Source: Candidatus Gastranaerophilales bacterium (lineage in GTDB: Bacteria; Cyanobacteriota; Vampirovibrionia; Gastranaerophilales; Gastranaerophilaceae). From it: a stretch of DNA of 64,000 nt. Made by a program: the position numbers and the translations under genes. Location: assembly GCA_944324285.1 (NCBI GenBank), contig CALUVR010000004.1, positions 1 to 64,000 on the forward strand, read 5' to 3'. Below the pieces are notes generated by a model. It had not been told where the DNA came from and did no database searches. It saw nothing but the letters and a program-made list of their open reading frames with translations. Below are positions 9,694-45,265 of the stretch, one piece after another (the stretch's first letter is position 1; each line of letters opens with the position of its first letter).

Positions 9694-10140
9694 TTAATGT
9701 TTTTTCATTTCTTTATGCAGGACTTCTTCAAATGAAACAATCGGTTTCATCTGATATCCGCAGTCGTCAGATAAGGCGCCGCCCATAGAGAAAAGTTCCT
9801 CCTGCGGGTATCTTCTGCAAATCCCGGGGCGAGTTTTGTGGATTTTACACTTATGCGTTTCTGGGTCTAAATTCATGCACTCAAACACAAGCCCTGTTTC
9901 ATCTTTATCTATAACCTTCAAATAAGTATAAAACCTGTGCAGGTATTTTAGTTTTTCAAACTCTTTTTCGTCCTGAATGACGTGTTTGTAGTGTTTTACA
10001 TAAATTTTTGTACAGCATTTACCGCAGGCTTTGCATTTGCCTGTGCGGTAATATTTCCGCCTCAGAATTTTTGAAAGGATAAATTTTCTGATTGGAAGAA
10101 TAAAATTTTCTATCTTTGTAACGATTTGTAAATCTTTCAT
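9694..10140 (-). CDS. YkgJ-family cysteine-cluster protein
   Basis: A 148-residue protein of the YkgJ zinc- or iron-chelating family. Cysteines are arranged as CKACGKCC near the middle, then CMNLDPETHKCKIHKTRPGI followed by C and RRYP, the usual family pattern. It has no signal peptide and probably acts in the cytoplasm. The function of the family is not established. An AGGGA ribosome site precedes the ATG. It converges with proA, two bases apart. Confidence 0.85.
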   Translation of the reverse strand: MKDLQIVTKIENFILPIRKFILSKILRRKYYRTGKCKACGKCCTKIYVKHYKHVIQDEKEFEKLKYLHRFYTYLKVIDKDETGLVFECMNLDPETHKCKIHKTRPGICRRYPQEELFSMGGALSDDCGYQMKPIVSFEEVLHKEMKKH

Positions 10141-10169
10141 TTCCCTACCCGCAAAAGAATTTTTTCAGG

Positions 10170-10284
10170 GGTATTTATAAGTACGTAACACTACCGAATT
10201 ATAAATACCATAACAATACTATAACATAACCAAAATAACCAACCTTGACCTCTTGATAATCAAAAATAAAGAGGTCTTTTTTTT
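10170..10284 (+). ncRNA. Possible small RNA in the divergent spacer
   Basis: The spacer between the YkgJ gene and the next plus-strand gene carries an 11-bp inverted repeat (GGTATTTATAA / TTATAAATACC, arms 10170-10180 and 10199-10209). It is followed by an intrinsic terminator (GACCTCTT / AAGAGGTC, then T8). The terminator has no plus-strand gene before it, and a TATAAT for the next gene lies after it (10303-10308). A short transcript would explain this layout; no promoter for it was identified. Confidence 0.35.
10247..10284 (+). terminator. Intrinsic terminator without an upstream gene
   Basis: An 8-bp stem GACCTCTT/AAGAGGTC with a 14-nt loop, followed directly by eight T. Confidence 0.8.
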
Positions 10285-10337
10285 ATTTGAAAAAAATGTT
10301 AATATAATTATTATGGTTATTTTTTAAATATAAGGAG

Positions 10338-33727: not shown

Positions 33728-33807
33728 GGTTATGAAATTATGGTAATCAGTCAACAAGTGTAACAAAGTGTAAACTTCTGTTTAAACCTCTGTAAGTTTA
33801 TACTATC

Positions 33808-33822
33808 AGGAGGTTTATGTGA
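33808..33822 (+). promoter_or_regulatory. AGGAGG followed by a start-stop ATGTGA
   Basis: A perfect AGGAGG stands three bases before ATG-TGA, a two-codon frame. The overlapping GTG opens a frame into the gene below, adding 36 hydrophobic residues. It could be the true start, a translated leader that affects the downstream gene, or chance. Confidence 0.35.
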
Positions 33823-35007: not shown

Positions 35008-35862
35008 ATGAAAATTATTGTGTCGAATGTAAATTATGTGGTTAATAGTAGTGCCTTTAAGAGAACGGTTCTCAGAACAAAAACAAGCGGGCATGATTGG
35101 ACACAGCTTTCGTGTTCAACTCGAAAACCCTCATTACTGCAAAGAATAAAAAAAATTTTTGGTTTAAGACAAAAAATTAATCCTAAGCGTTTCGCTGATG
35201 GTTCGCATACTCCGAAAGGTCCTTATGCAGCTTCCGTAAAATCAGTCCAAACATCTGACAAATATTTGAAATACGGTTATCTTTCAGAAAATGACAGAAT
35301 AGTTAACGGGTTCCGGGAAGGCGGACGAAATGCTTCGTTTACAAAGTTTGGCGATACTCTGTATGCGGATAGAGAAGTCATTACTGTTGATTTGGAAAAA
35401 GATGTCTATCTGCAGAATTTACTGAAGTACGTCAGAAAAAGTGCAACCTCACTTTCCGAAAAATCAAAAATGCAGTTTCTGTTTAAACTCATCCGCGATA
35501 TTGGCGGAGACAGCAAAGCAGCATTTAAAGGTTCCAACATGCTTGCCAAAAACCGTCAGGCTCAGGAAGTTCTTCTGGGTAAAATCTTTGAACACGAATG
35601 TGCTGTCTGCAGGCATAAATCAATTCTGGCAAAACTTCTCGGAGATGAACTCGGGTTGAATACGCGGCTTATCCGAGGAAATCTTAATGATATTGTCGGC
35701 GAAAACGCTCATATCTGGAATGAAATTAAACTGTCAAACGGCAAAAAATATCTTTTTGATGTTCAGCAGGGAGTTCTTATGGATATGACAAATAAAAACG
35801 CCTCAAATAACTATATTCTTTCTATGTATTTTACTCCGGATTTTCGTCAGGTTTATAAGTAA
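35008..35862 (+). CDS. Transglutaminase-like (EDR1/CTR1-type) cysteine peptidase-fold protein
   Basis: 284 residues. The C-terminal 100 hold a likely Cys-His-Asp triad: Cys201 in CRHKSILAKLLGDELGL, His235 in AHIWNEI, and Asp251 in YLFDVQ. The order and spacing match transglutaminase-like domains, most like the EDR1/CTR1 peptidase-like domain known from plant kinases. The N-terminal half is basic and unrecognised. The start MKIIVSNVNYVVNSSAFKR carries an F-K tag like other proteins here. No signal peptide and no clear ribosome site. The substrate is unknown. Confidence 0.75.
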   Translation: MKIIVSNVNYVVNSSAFKRTVLRTKTSGHDWTQLSCSTRKPSLLQRIKKIFGLRQKINPKRFADGSHTPKGPYAASVKSVQTSDKYLKYGYLSENDRIVNGFREGGRNASFTKFGDTLYADREVITVDLEKDVYLQNLLKYVRKSATSLSEKSKMQFLFKLIRDIGGDSKAAFKGSNMLAKNRQAQEVLLGKIFEHECAVCRHKSILAKLLGDELGLNTRLIRGNLNDIVGENAHIWNEIKLSNGKKYLFDVQQGVLMDMTNKNASNNYILSMYFTPDFRQVYK

Positions 35863-39509: not shown

Positions 39510-41129
39510 ATGAAAACAGAAGCAGAACGTTTGAAAAAAAAGCTTACCTACCAGCCTTTGCTTGACAAAATCGCAAATGGAGATAAACTTTTTAAGGAAC
39601 AAAAGTACACAGAAGCTATAGACGTATTTAAAGAAGCTCTGTCAGAAATTGATAAGTCTTATGAATATAATATATGTGAACTCTATAGAAAAATCGGTAA
39701 CTGCTATTACCGCCTGAAAGATAGGGATTTAGCCTGCGAAGCGTTTGAAAATACCCTTAAATATTGCACAACAAACGCAAGCGTCTATTCTATGCTTGGC
39801 TATATGTGCTACTATTCAGATAATGAAAAAAGCATCAGATATTATTCAAAAGCTCTTTCTCTAAAACCTCTGCCGAATTGTGTTTCAAGTATCTGCCTTA
39901 CTATGCTTAAATCAGATAAATATTCCCAGAAAGAGCTGAAAGAAGCCATAGAATACGAAATAAACCGTTATAGACCATACGTATTAAAGGACGATAAACC
40001 TTTTGAATATTCTGTGCCGCAAAATCCAAATAAAAAATTGCATATAGGCTATATGTCCTCTGATTTTCACTGTCACGCTATGATGCAGTTTATTTTGCCG
40101 CTTTTGGAATATCATAATCAAAAGAAATTTAATTTTACGCTTTATGCATGTTCCCCGAAACAGGATTCCACTACAGAGCGGATTAAACGTACCGGAATGA
40201 GGTTTGAAGATTGTTCAAAGTTAACGGAAAAAGAACTTGCCCAAAAAATTCACGATGACGGTGTTGATATTCTCGTCGATTTAGGCGGTTATACCCACTG
40301 CAGATGCTTTGCTCTGTATTATAAACCTGCGCCTCTGATTATGCAGTATCTGGGGTTTGTAAATACAATGGGGATGAAAGAGATTGATTATATTTTTGCG
40401 GATGAATTTGTTATTCCGAAAAATATTGCTAAATATTATACGGAAAAACCTCTTTATTTGAAATCAGGAATGCACAGATTTGATTTTAATAATGCCAGAA
40501 TACAGCTTCCAGATATAAATGAGCTTCCATACTATTCAAACGGCTATATAACATTCGGCAGTTTTAACTGTCCTTCTAAAATAAATGATTACACAATAGG
40601 TCTGTGGGCAAAAGTTCTGCAAAATGTACCGAATTCAAAGCTTCTTATCTACAGAACCCAGATGACGGAAAAAATTATTAACAAATTTAAAAAGAAGTTT
40701 GCTGAGTACGGTATAGGTGACAATCGTGTGATATATCAAAATGAACATTGTAAAGGAATTCATTTTAATGCATATAAAATGGCTGATATAGCACTTGATA
40801 CAACTCCGTTTAACGGTCTTACAATAACACTTGAATTGATATCTATGGGGATTCCGGTAGTCACTCTTGTCGGGCAGAGCATGCAATCACGCGGCTGCGC
40901 TCATATTAACCACGAATTAAAACTGAATGATTTGATTGCCGAAAATGAGAGTGAATATATAATAAAAGCGCAGGCACTTGCCAATGATATCAAAAAACTT
41001 GACTACTACCGTCATCATTTGCGGGATATTTTGAATAAATCGCCACTGAGGCGTGACGCCAAAGGGTTTGCAAAGTGTGTGGAAGATGCATACACTAAAG
41101 CGTGGAAGGATTATTGTAAATCTTTGTAA
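39510..41129 (+). CDS. TPR protein with GT41 (O-GlcNAc transferase-like) glycosyltransferase domain
   Basis: 539 residues. Two or three tetratricopeptide repeats fill about residues 20-125, followed by a GT41/SPINDLY-type catalytic domain from about 175. Signatures include IGYMSSDFHCHAM (residues 179-191, the motif of the active-site histidine), DILVDLGGYTH, ITFGSFNCPSKI and DTTPFNGLTITLELISMGIPVVTL. In eukaryotes and some bacteria this fold adds GlcNAc to Ser/Thr of proteins; the bacterial substrate here is unknown. It is probably cytoplasmic. A nucleotidase gene follows 51 bases later. Confidence 0.92.
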   Translation: MKTEAERLKKKLTYQPLLDKIANGDKLFKEQKYTEAIDVFKEALSEIDKSYEYNICELYRKIGNCYYRLKDRDLACEAFENTLKYCTTNASVYSMLGYMCYYSDNEKSIRYYSKALSLKPLPNCVSSICLTMLKSDKYSQKELKEAIEYEINRYRPYVLKDDKPFEYSVPQNPNKKLHIGYMSSDFHCHAMMQFILPLLEYHNQKKFNFTLYACSPKQDSTTERIKRTGMRFEDCSKLTEKELAQKIHDDGVDILVDLGGYTHCRCFALYYKPAPLIMQYLGFVNTMGMKEIDYIFADEFVIPKNIAKYYTEKPLYLKSGMHRFDFNNARIQLPDINELPYYSNGYITFGSFNCPSKINDYTIGLWAKVLQNVPNSKLLIYRTQMTEKIINKFKKKFAEYGIGDNRVIYQNEHCKGIHFNAYKMADIALDTTPFNGLTITLELISMGIPVVTLVGQSMQSRGCAHINHELKLNDLIAENESEYIIKAQALANDIKKLDYYRHHLRDILNKSPLRRDAKGFAKCVEDAYTKAWKDYCKSL

Positions 41130-41147
41130 ACCAAAGCGCAAAAAATA

Positions 41148-41182
41148 ATTTTCAGGAACCTTAATGTTAAGGGACTGAAAAT
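41148..41182 (+). promoter_or_regulatory. Hairpin enclosing the ribosome site and start codon of the nucleotidase gene
   Basis: The outer stem ATTTTCAG/CTGAAAAT includes the first two bases of the start codon. The inner stem CCTTA/TAAGG contains the AAGGG ribosome site. Both would be hidden when folded, so translation may be switched by temperature, a protein or a ligand. Translation from the preceding gene ends 19 bases before the hairpin. Confidence 0.5.
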
Positions 41183-42749
41183 GATTAATCCTTTGATTAC
41201 ATCACAATCGTCAAATTTAATATCCCGAAATAACAGGCAGAACTATTCCAACCCAAAAAATCCGCCGATTAGTTCAGACTATACCCGCACAAGTATATTT
41301 TACGTTAACGACTATCACGGCAGAGCAATAAATATGGAGCGAACAATAACGGCTTCAAATGAGTTTGACAGATTTGTCCCATCGCAGCCGACAGATAAGC
41401 TTAAACTGGCATCCGGCGATATTATGCTTGGAGAAGATTCTTTGATAAATAAAGTCGCAGCAACATTTTTAAGAATTATCGGTGTTACGGCGTCTGCTGT
41501 GGGAAATCACGAATGTGATACTAATCCTGCTGAAATAAACAATCTGTTTCCTCATCTTTCATATACCCTTCTTGCCTGCAATTTGAAGTCAAAAGATGAA
41601 AACGACGATTTTCATAAATATATAAAGTCCTCAATTATAGAAGAGCATAATGGTAATAAATACGGGATTATCGGGACTATTCCGTCTGATTTATTGACAA
41701 GATTAAAGTATGCGGATGTCTTGAGAGAGAAGGATATAGAACCTGCGAGTATTGAAGAAACCATACAAATGGTTCAATCAGAAGTTGATAAATTGAGGGC
41801 GCAGGGGGTAAATAAAATAATCCTTTTATCCCATAGCGGTTACGGATATGACATGAAGATAGCAGAGCAGACCGACGGTATTGATGTTATCCTTGGCGGG
41901 CATTCCCATAACCTTTTGAAAGATATTAAGGAAAACATAAATCTTTTGAAATCAAAAAGCGGCGAGCCTGTAATTATTACGCAAGCGGGTCGCGACGGCA
42001 GAAACTTCGGCGTTTTAAACCTTGAATTTGACAGTAACGGAATTATCACAAAAGCTCAGAATAACGTTGCGACAACACGAATATTCAGCCGTAACGCACC
42101 GGCAAGACACGTATTTGATATGATATTAGGTAAACCTGAAGTCGTCGGACATGTTAGAACCGCACCTCCTATAATGCAAAATGATTTGATAGATCCGAGT
42201 CCTCTTGCAAACTTTGTGCTTGATGCCGTGAGGGAAGATACAGGTGCTGAAGTTGCTATAATTTCAGCTGCTCTCCTTCGCGGAAGTTTGGAAAAAGGAA
42301 GGGTTGATACTAGGACGATTTCTGAATTATCTCCTTTTAAAAATAAAATTGTAAATGTATATTATACTGAAAAAGAACTTGTTGACGCTATAAAATTTGC
42401 AGCGCATTCGTTCTCAAATCAGAGTAATAAACCGGGGCTGATATACGTATCCGGTTTAAAATACACCGTTTCAAAAGATGGTAAAATAAAGGAGATTAAA
42501 TTTGTCCGAAAAGACGGAACAGAAGAGAATATAGATGTAAACAATCCTCGTAAAGATAAAAAGTATCTGGTTTCCGTGAACGATTATATTGCAGCAGGCG
42601 GGGACAATTTTAGTATGCTTAATAAGATTAAGCAGGCAGAGAAAGTATTTGATTACGATTTGACAAAGTGTGTAGAGGATTACTTCCGCCGGCATCCGGA
42701 ACCAGTTGATATAGTGGACGACGGCAGAATAAAAGTTGTCGATGAATAG
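41181..42749 (+). CDS. 5'-nucleotidase / UDP-sugar hydrolase family protein
   Basis: 522 residues with a calcineurin-like metallophosphoesterase domain and a 5'-nucleotidase C-terminal domain. Metal ligands are visible: Asp44 and His46 in NDYHG, Asp80 in SGD, GNHE (Asn109-His110), LSHSGYGYD and GGHSH. The C-terminal domain has VNDYIAAGGDNF. UshA-type enzymes act in the periplasm, but no signal peptide is present here; the first 35 residues are polar and Asn-rich. It could act inside the cell or use another export route. Confidence 0.9.
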   Translation: MINPLITSQSSNLISRNNRQNYSNPKNPPISSDYTRTSIFYVNDYHGRAINMERTITASNEFDRFVPSQPTDKLKLASGDIMLGEDSLINKVAATFLRIIGVTASAVGNHECDTNPAEINNLFPHLSYTLLACNLKSKDENDDFHKYIKSSIIEEHNGNKYGIIGTIPSDLLTRLKYADVLREKDIEPASIEETIQMVQSEVDKLRAQGVNKIILLSHSGYGYDMKIAEQTDGIDVILGGHSHNLLKDIKENINLLKSKSGEPVIITQAGRDGRNFGVLNLEFDSNGIITKAQNNVATTRIFSRNAPARHVFDMILGKPEVVGHVRTAPPIMQNDLIDPSPLANFVLDAVREDTGAEVAIISAALLRGSLEKGRVDTRTISELSPFKNKIVNVYYTEKELVDAIKFAAHSFSNQSNKPGLIYVSGLKYTVSKDGKIKEIKFVRKDGTEENIDVNNPRKDKKYLVSVNDYIAAGGDNFSMLNKIKQAEKVFDYDLTKCVEDYFRRHPEPVDIVDDGRIKVVDE

Positions 42750-44110: not shown

Positions 44111-45265
44111 ATGGCTATATCACCTATCAGTAATGCATTAACAAGAAATTATAATGTAGGGTTTAACGGGAATAATAAAAAATCAGGAAACAGAGGAAAT
44201 AATGTTTCACATAATGTGACTTCGTTTGTAAAAGCGGCACCTCTTGCGGCGGTTATTGCGATGAGTCCTTTGACAACACAAAATATTCAGGCATTAGATA
44301 AGCTTCCAAATACTGCGCATACAACACTTGTGTATAACAATAATGCTAATGCTATTGACGATATTAGACAGTCCGGAAATATCATTTCGCATAAAGAGTT
44401 TGAAGATGCAACTGATCTGGGCTTGAGCGCGGATGTTAACTTGATAAAAAATCCGAAAGGTGCTGAAACGAAAAACAGTGTTGAAGTTTTCGTTTCAAGT
44501 CAGGATGACAGAATATACGATTTAGGCGGTTTGCAAGGCAAGGTAAGAGGTCTTGTAAATGTCACTTATGAAATTTACGGTGATGACGGAAATGAATACG
44601 GAAAATTCAGAATTAGACAGTTTCTGGTAGAGGATAAGAACAATCCGGGTGATATCTACAATGTGACTGCGTCAAAGGTTTCTGATTATATTGAATCAAT
44701 TGTTAATGACCCTAAATACGAAACCGGTATAGAAACTTTAAATTTAACACGTAAAATCAGACCGTCTGTAAGTACTGGATTTCAGAATGTTCCGACCGAT
44801 CCTTCCTGGATGGAAAAAGCCAAAAAAACTTTCACAAATTTCGGAAAAGAAATTGTGACAGCGGAAGTTCAGGGTGATTACGGTACTTACCAGCTTGTCG
44901 GATATTCAACAGACGGAAATGATGACGATTTTGAAGTTCTGACGATAGGAAAACTGGGTGAATACGAAGGTATCAGAGCTATGGTTGGTCCTGAAATGAA
45001 AGTGGATGGCATAAGAGATATTAATTCACAATTCTTCAGCTATGATATTTTTGACAGCATGGACTATAGTCAGGTTAATATAAGTAAAGAAGGCGTCGGC
45101 AAATTCGCAATTATGGATGATGGACTTGTGAAGGCATTGCGTAATGCTATGGGAGCACCTCAATTTAATAATGCGTATAAAGTTGACTCAAACATTGAAC
45201 ACATCCTTGTTATGCCGTCAGGTTTGATTTCAAAACTTAATTATCAGGAAGGACTGACAAAGTAG
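44111..45265 (+). CDS. Protein of unknown function with N-terminal F-N-G tag
   Basis: 384 residues beginning MAISPISNALTRNYNVGFNG, then a polar stretch, then a hydrophobic segment (KAAPLAAVIAMSPL, about residues 42-55). The rest is soluble and acidic with no cysteine. No domain recognised. It has a strong promoter, a GGAG ribosome site and a 1019-residue gene downstream in the same direction with no terminator between, so the two may form an operon. Confidence 0.85.
   Translation: MAISPISNALTRNYNVGFNGNNKKSGNRGNNVSHNVTSFVKAAPLAAVIAMSPLTTQNIQALDKLPNTAHTTLVYNNNANAIDDIRQSGNIISHKEFEDATDLGLSADVNLIKNPKGAETKNSVEVFVSSQDDRIYDLGGLQGKVRGLVNVTYEIYGDDGNEYGKFRIRQFLVEDKNNPGDIYNVTASKVSDYIESIVNDPKYETGIETLNLTRKIRPSVSTGFQNVPTDPSWMEKAKKTFTNFGKEIVTAEVQGDYGTYQLVGYSTDGNDDDFEVLTIGKLGEYEGIRAMVGPEMKVDGIRDINSQFFSYDIFDSMDYSQVNISKEGVGKFAIMDDGLVKALRNAMGAPQFNNAYKVDSNIEHILVMPSGLISKLNYQEGLTK

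Follow-up and report, generated by a model that had tools for sequence, protein, structure and literature searches.

Genomic setting and hairpin

The window analysed here, a 64,000-nucleotide stretch of DNA from a Candidatus Gastranaerophilales bacterium whose genome comprises 2.0 Mb in 55 contigs, contains a 5'-nucleotidase family gene preceded by a co-directional gene encoding a TPR and glycosyltransferase family 41 protein (Table 1). The nucleotidase product, 522 residues with Metallophos and 5_nucleotid_C domains, agrees with the identification of the gene in a preliminary description of this DNA, and matches to it were found in 90 of 99 genomes searched (own genome counted). Its nearest named relatives belong to Candidatus Gastranaerophilales, among them, at 83% identity, Candidatus Scatousia excrementigallinarum. 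The glycosyltransferase gene ends 51 nt before the nucleotidase ATG, with no T-run terminator between the two; a glycosyltransferase 41 gene end 51-53 nt upstream is found in the window and at loci L003-L009 and L015-L016, with a small TM1266-like gene 76-100 nt upstream taking its place in L010, L011, L017-L023 and L025. The 51-nt interval itself (41130-41180), from the glycosyltransferase stop to the ATG, is open in the nucleotidase frame, as are its counterparts in L003, L004, L006 and L007.

Table 1. Features around the nucleotidase start and the candidate small RNA, in window positions
Feature	Position	Strand	Remark
TPR and glycosyltransferase family 41 gene, upstream and co-directional	39510..41129	+	possible source of read-through RNA
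Motif distal block, TTGTAAA	41114..41120	+	shared with the final codons of the upstream gene
Motif core block, GCAAAAAA-type (here GCAAAAAA)	41138..41145	+	G at 41138 is position 0
Motif T-tract and CAGG block	41147..41156	+	from the motif alignment
Outer stem, 5' arm, ATTTTCAG	41148..41155	+	upstream of the predicted transcription start
-10-like block, here CCTTAA (consensus TTTTAA at +21..+26)	41159..41164	+	putative -10, from the start-codon distribution
Inner stem, 5' arm, CCTTA	41159..41163	+	overlaps the -10-like block
Inner stem, 3' arm, TAAGG	41168..41172	+	predicted fold
Ribosome site, AAGGGA	41169..41174	+	GGGA in nearly all orthologous leaders
Predicted transcription start	41169..41173 (+31..+35)	+	from the start-codon distribution
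Outer stem, 3' arm, CTGAAAAT	41175..41182	+	runs into the ATG
5'-nucleotidase family gene	41181..42749	+	no Sec-like N-terminal stretch
Candidate small RNA	10184-10285	+	behind the second motif copy, ends in an intrinsic terminator

The start of the nucleotidase gene lies within a predicted hairpin of two stems: the outer stem's 3' arm ends with the first two bases of the start codon (ATG at 41181), and the inner stem covers most of the AAGGG site. Both stems had been proposed in the preliminary description, and their position and pairings were confirmed. The fold of 41120-41210 has a z-score of -2.9 (2 of 200 shuffles equally stable), the 37-nt leader alone reaches z -4.9, and the hairpin, at -13.3 kcal/mol, takes third place when 51 start regions from the window are ranked, a comparison based on automatically chosen start codons from which we use the ranking alone, one value being an edge artefact. 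In a long RNA the predicted stem would sequester both the ribosome site and the start codon; the fold makes this earlier claim possible, and similar pairing in orthologues exceeds expectation. A role as terminator of the upstream gene was rejected, there being no T-run after the hairpin, as was a short reading frame of four codons within the loop (41164-41178), the ATG of which is lost in L004 and L008. Elsewhere in the window, at 33780-33822 (+), an AGGAGG ribosome site lies within a stem, TAAACCTC/GAGGTTTA, before a putative GTG start at 33819.

A conserved motif across the family

The 5' arm and loop of the hairpin constitute one copy of a motif of about 50 bp, composed of TTGTAAA, 18-19 bp, GCAAAAAA, a T-tract, CAGG and TTTTAA. 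Orthologous leaders share TTGTAAA (ATGTAA in some), the 18-19 bp spacing, GCAAAAA, the T-tract and often CAGG or CACGG, and these blocks are kept even under different upstream genes. Additional copies in the same genome were recovered with R1, a sequence-only model built on 22 motif sequences that include window positions 10126-10170; among 28 own-genome copies that were read, 23 lie a short way ahead of a gene of similar type on the same strand and 5 do not. Across the family, R1 matches at E<=1 occur in all 60 sampled Gastranaerophilales family genomes, while at E<=0.01 there are 6-19 copies each in 19 family genomes versus 0-2 in each of 58 genomes drawn from other families of the class, with other families of the same order lying outside the sample. 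A strict sequence pattern matched 2 sites in the own genome and 1 in the control; a looser one matched 10, several of them within genes, and again 1 in the control.

Three of 30 own-genome motif loci (L084, L088 and L090) were excluded as lying inside ORFs, and the loci taken from the 60-genome search represent 109 of the matches listed, not all of them. With the G of GCAAAA as position 0, 135 of 136 motif loci could be anchored (L134 has no anchor), and their alignment displays TGTAA (-23..-19), a T-rich stretch (-16..-11), TA (-2,-1), GCAAAAAA (0-7), a T-tract (9-14), a G-rich block (17-20) and TTTTAA (21-26), with little conserved past +27. The arrangement, distribution and conservation of these blocks indicate that the nucleotidase leader very probably contains a promoter specific to this family. 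A sigma-28-type promoter was rejected, the motif departing from the sigma-28 consensus; a TAAA...GCCGATA sequence does occur at another gene (L061). Searches of an open-access literature collection listed no paper describing this promoter, the regulon or the small RNA discussed below.

Predicted transcription start

Six anchored loci offer no ATG frame within range; for the genes at the other 129, the position of the first ATG behind the motif could be examined. Only two have it at or before +30, neither with a ribosome site: L183, which starts at +29, and L079, which has another ATG at +33. A further 19 genes start at +31..+38, none of them with a ribosome-site core, and a single gene starts at +39..+42, with a ribosome site. 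The first ATG falls at +43..+75 in 72 genes (59 with a ribosome site) and beyond +75 in the other 35 (28 with a ribosome site). This accumulation of start codons lacking ribosome sites at +31..+38 puts the predicted transcription start near +33. For the nucleotidase gene, transcription is therefore likely to begin inside the hairpin, with the ATG at +43. RNA taken from 41170 onward cannot form the hairpin because the 5' arms are absent; its predicted fold is no better than that of shuffles (z -0.4), although GGGA is weakly paired in it with a distal CCC.

Leaderless mRNAs are a general class of bacterial transcripts, and where the ATG sits near +33 such mRNAs offer the simplest reading of the pattern: in 19 genes the start codon coincides with the predicted transcription start, 6-9 nt past the -10-like block, without a ribosome site. 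The nucleotidase gene differs in having a short leader of its own, and the promoters described here differ from the general class in their extra blocks, GCAAAAAA and TTGTAAA.

A second copy of the motif in the window (10126-10170) precedes a frame-free stretch ending in an intrinsic terminator, which we consider a candidate small RNA; an Rfam search with it (10184-10285) returned no match. A block of about 50 nt with almost no G shows no variation among the 12 genus members aligned. The locus was matched in 13 of 13 genus genomes, with the main match starting at 10186 in the diverged genomes G007, G001 and G010 (identity 97, 89 and 95%, respectively). The core (<=3 mismatches) is present in 25 of 117 family genomes, and an R1 match lies just upstream of it in most of 24 small RNA loci, being weak or missing in some. 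Conservation thus begins at about the predicted start, which backs the start site only roughly because the first bases of the small RNA vary between members.

Conservation of the pairing across orthologues

Compensatory changes in relatives, which the preliminary description had named as a check of the hairpin, were examined within the genus and across clades. The fraction of paired cells within the genus is 79%, falling to 66-69% once the partners are shifted by a single column. Both sides have changed in 2 of 13 pairs, a number equalled by 376 of 500 shuffles, while double-change cell counts and the covariation score were equalled by 8 and 6 of 500 shuffles, respectively. Covariation within the genus is therefore weak. 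Across clades, stem sequences differ (L001, L010, L017, L020 and L023) and the position of the pairing is retained, so that pairing is kept with different stems.

As a control we held the upstream half of each leader fixed and swapped the segment that separates the ribosome site from the ATG (the spacer) between 17 of 28 nucleotidase leaders, one per clade (L024, L025 and L030 have no anchor). Pairing is stronger with a leader's own spacer than with those of other clades (p 5e-5 for the 17 leaders; 0.0003-0.0015 over six definitions), also when the window's leader is removed (p 0.0008; 0.001-0.008 over six definitions), with the reservation that p-values from foreign spacers and shuffles ignore shared ancestry. 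The effect is found in 11 leaders having a close co-directional upstream gene (L001 excluded; p 0.0005-0.002) and is absent in 5 leaders, from 3 genera, lacking such a gene (p 0.77-0.98), a contrast that was framed post hoc, after the data had been seen. A close upstream gene is nevertheless accompanied by a weak or missing hairpin in L012, L015, L016, L018, L022 and L025, of which L012, L018 and L022 count among the positives of that contrast. The leaders L226 and L229, both outside the scored set, resemble the negative L013.

The hairpin is not a general part of the regulon, an option rejected on the basis of 64 leaders labelled non-nucleotidase (combined p 0.95). One of these, L158, was afterwards reclassified as a nucleotidase leader, which left 63 other regulon leaders for the six-definition test, in which the swap effect is absent (p 0.35). 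Other regulon genes with a close upstream gene have no such hairpins.

Proteins encoded behind the motif

In the 129 proteins behind the motif, N makes up 12.4% of residues 2-25, against 5.4% for 52 window genes; P (5.3% against 2.6%) and Q (6.5% against 3.6%) are likewise enriched, and L and E are under-represented. Sec-like stretches occur in 5 of the 129 and in 6 of the 52. An F[GTQSNR][GASV]-type pattern, picked after the sequences had been read, is found in the first 60 residues of 52/129 proteins behind the motif and 5/52 window genes, and a looser N-terminal pattern in 88/129 and 24/52. Two further genes of the window, at 44111-45265 (+) and 35008-35862 (+), encode similar N-termini (MAISPISNALTRNYNVGFNGN and MKIIVSNVNYVVNSSAFKRT) with no strong motif match directly upstream.

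The same genome encodes homologues of FlhB, FlhA (two matches), FliF, FliE and FliH, and a search of it for flagellin gave no match, such that export apparatus genes are present and flagellin is absent. The FliF, FliE, FliH and FlhA genes lie on contig C18 (L204, L201), where the FlhB gene adjoins one encoding a small protein limited to sigma-70 region 4. On contig C27 a second, shorter FlhA-family match (163 bits) lies in an ORF (L205, 9999-11477) whose end closely precedes a motif copy and a signature-type gene. In genome G099 an FlhB-like gene, named by its sequence likeness to the FlhB of our genome, stands behind the motif (L180); near the latter's own flhB (L200) the motif was looked for and not found. 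Taken with export genes lacking flagellin, the proteins behind the motif give a hint of a secretion regulon, and we put forward an export regulon as a hypothesis only. The gut genome MEL.A1, according to Di Rienzi et al. (PMC3787301), is without filament and L and P rings, a loss read there as ongoing genome reduction. Our genome is similar in having export and basal-body homologues and no flagellin match; where that account describes genome reduction, we propose a regulon of possible cargo.

Discussion

Building on features read directly from the sequence, namely the two stems at the gene start, a motif present across the family, the distribution of start codons and the clade-by-clade complementarity, we infer a transcription start, read-through and a block to translation that could combine as follows. 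The family-specific promoter would fire from inside the hairpin, at about 41169-41173, yielding a hairpin-free mRNA whose leader would measure about 8-12 nt. Read-through RNA from the glycosyltransferase gene would carry both arms, fold, and hide the ribosome site and start codon, blocking translation only on messages running in from the neighbouring gene. With read-through RNA folded shut and its own mRNA open, synthesis of the nucleotidase would require activity of its own promoter. Because +33 falls downstream of the strong 5' arms, the hairpin would be confined to read-through RNA. We give this explanation as a whole, a promoter embedded in a guard hairpin, an even chance of being correct, and whether the guard role is under selection is likewise finely balanced. 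A point against it is the -10-like block at this locus, CCTTAA, which departs from the TTTTAA consensus.

The preliminary description had instead suggested a thermosensor or a protein-controlled switch. RNA thermometers such as ROSE and FourU have a stem covering the ribosome site and start codon, as does the hairpin described here. The 5' arm, however, is promoter DNA upstream of the predicted start, so the main mRNA should lack it and the stem is not expected there; moreover, the four U of this hairpin pair with A residues and not, as in FourU, with the ribosome site. An Rfam search of the leader identified no family, its sole match being at chance level and on the opposite strand, and a riboswitch or thermometer family was rejected accordingly. 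Nor does the locus resemble a leader that binds a protein or ligand, given that both stem and loop vary between clades and conservation is limited to the blocks of the promoter motif. A temperature, protein or small RNA response could be retained if transcription began further up in the A/T tract, placing the hairpin in the main mRNA. TTGTAA and TAGCAA, about 16-17 bp apart, may be read as -35 and -10 elements, and the pairing position is kept while its sequence varies between clades. We nevertheless regard an upstream start as unlikely: start codons are nearly absent before +31 and then cluster without ribosome sites, conservation extends to +27 in all genes with or without a hairpin, pairing depends on the upstream gene, and Rfam offers no match.

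The main rival to the guard hairpin is incidental pairing, in which the promoter is real and its T-rich sequence matches by chance the A-rich bases that precede the start codon, a reading to which we assign a sizeable minority chance. It accords with the lack of excess pairing in the 64 other regulon leaders and of a strong hairpin in many orthologues. In addition, at the motif copy at 10126 a perfect 11-bp inverted repeat spans the start and is imperfect in relatives, showing that chance repeats occur. Against it, the spacer swap, which preserves composition, still favours own spacers, even without the window's leader. The inverted repeat might also act in DNA, as the operator of a repressor of this promoter, considering that it overlaps the -10-like block and the predicted start; such a role is very improbable, as the repeat is wholly different in sequence in L010, L017, L020 and L023, which makes the operator of a single repressor hard to sustain, and is absent from other promoter copies.

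The closest parallel to the guard hairpin is the lysozyme gene e of phage T4, for which a review (PMC3014915) describes long early transcripts that fold and are translated poorly, and late-promoter transcripts without the 5' part; T4 soc, 49 and I-TevI are named beside it. In T4, on that account (PMC3014915), long transcripts bury both the ribosome site and the start codon in a stem, and a promoter in the DNA of the 5' strand gives transcripts that lack it. The nucleotidase locus would be organised alike, with the difference that start sites, structure and loss of translation were measured in T4 and are predicted here. The nucleotidase locus further differs in its bacterial chromosomal setting, its promoter type and the turnover of stem sequences between clades.

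More broadly, these findings raise the possibility, on balance a doubtful one, that gut Gastranaerophilales possess a dedicated promoter class, often producing leaderless mRNAs, for a large set of cargo proteins of a flagellum-derived, filament-less type III apparatus. The nucleotidase would be one of these, its guard hairpin confining translation to times when the programme runs, and the small RNA would be included. From a single hairpin, the analysis leads to a probable family-wide promoter and a testable rule for transcription starts in mostly uncultured gut relatives of Cyanobacteria, and with that rule come an apparently leaderless class of mRNAs, a highly conserved small RNA and a large set of co-regulated proteins. 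If these proteins are exported, this would explain why flagellar-type export genes have been kept without flagellin, and the guard hairpin would bring to a chromosome a mechanism for which a phage offers the best-documented example.
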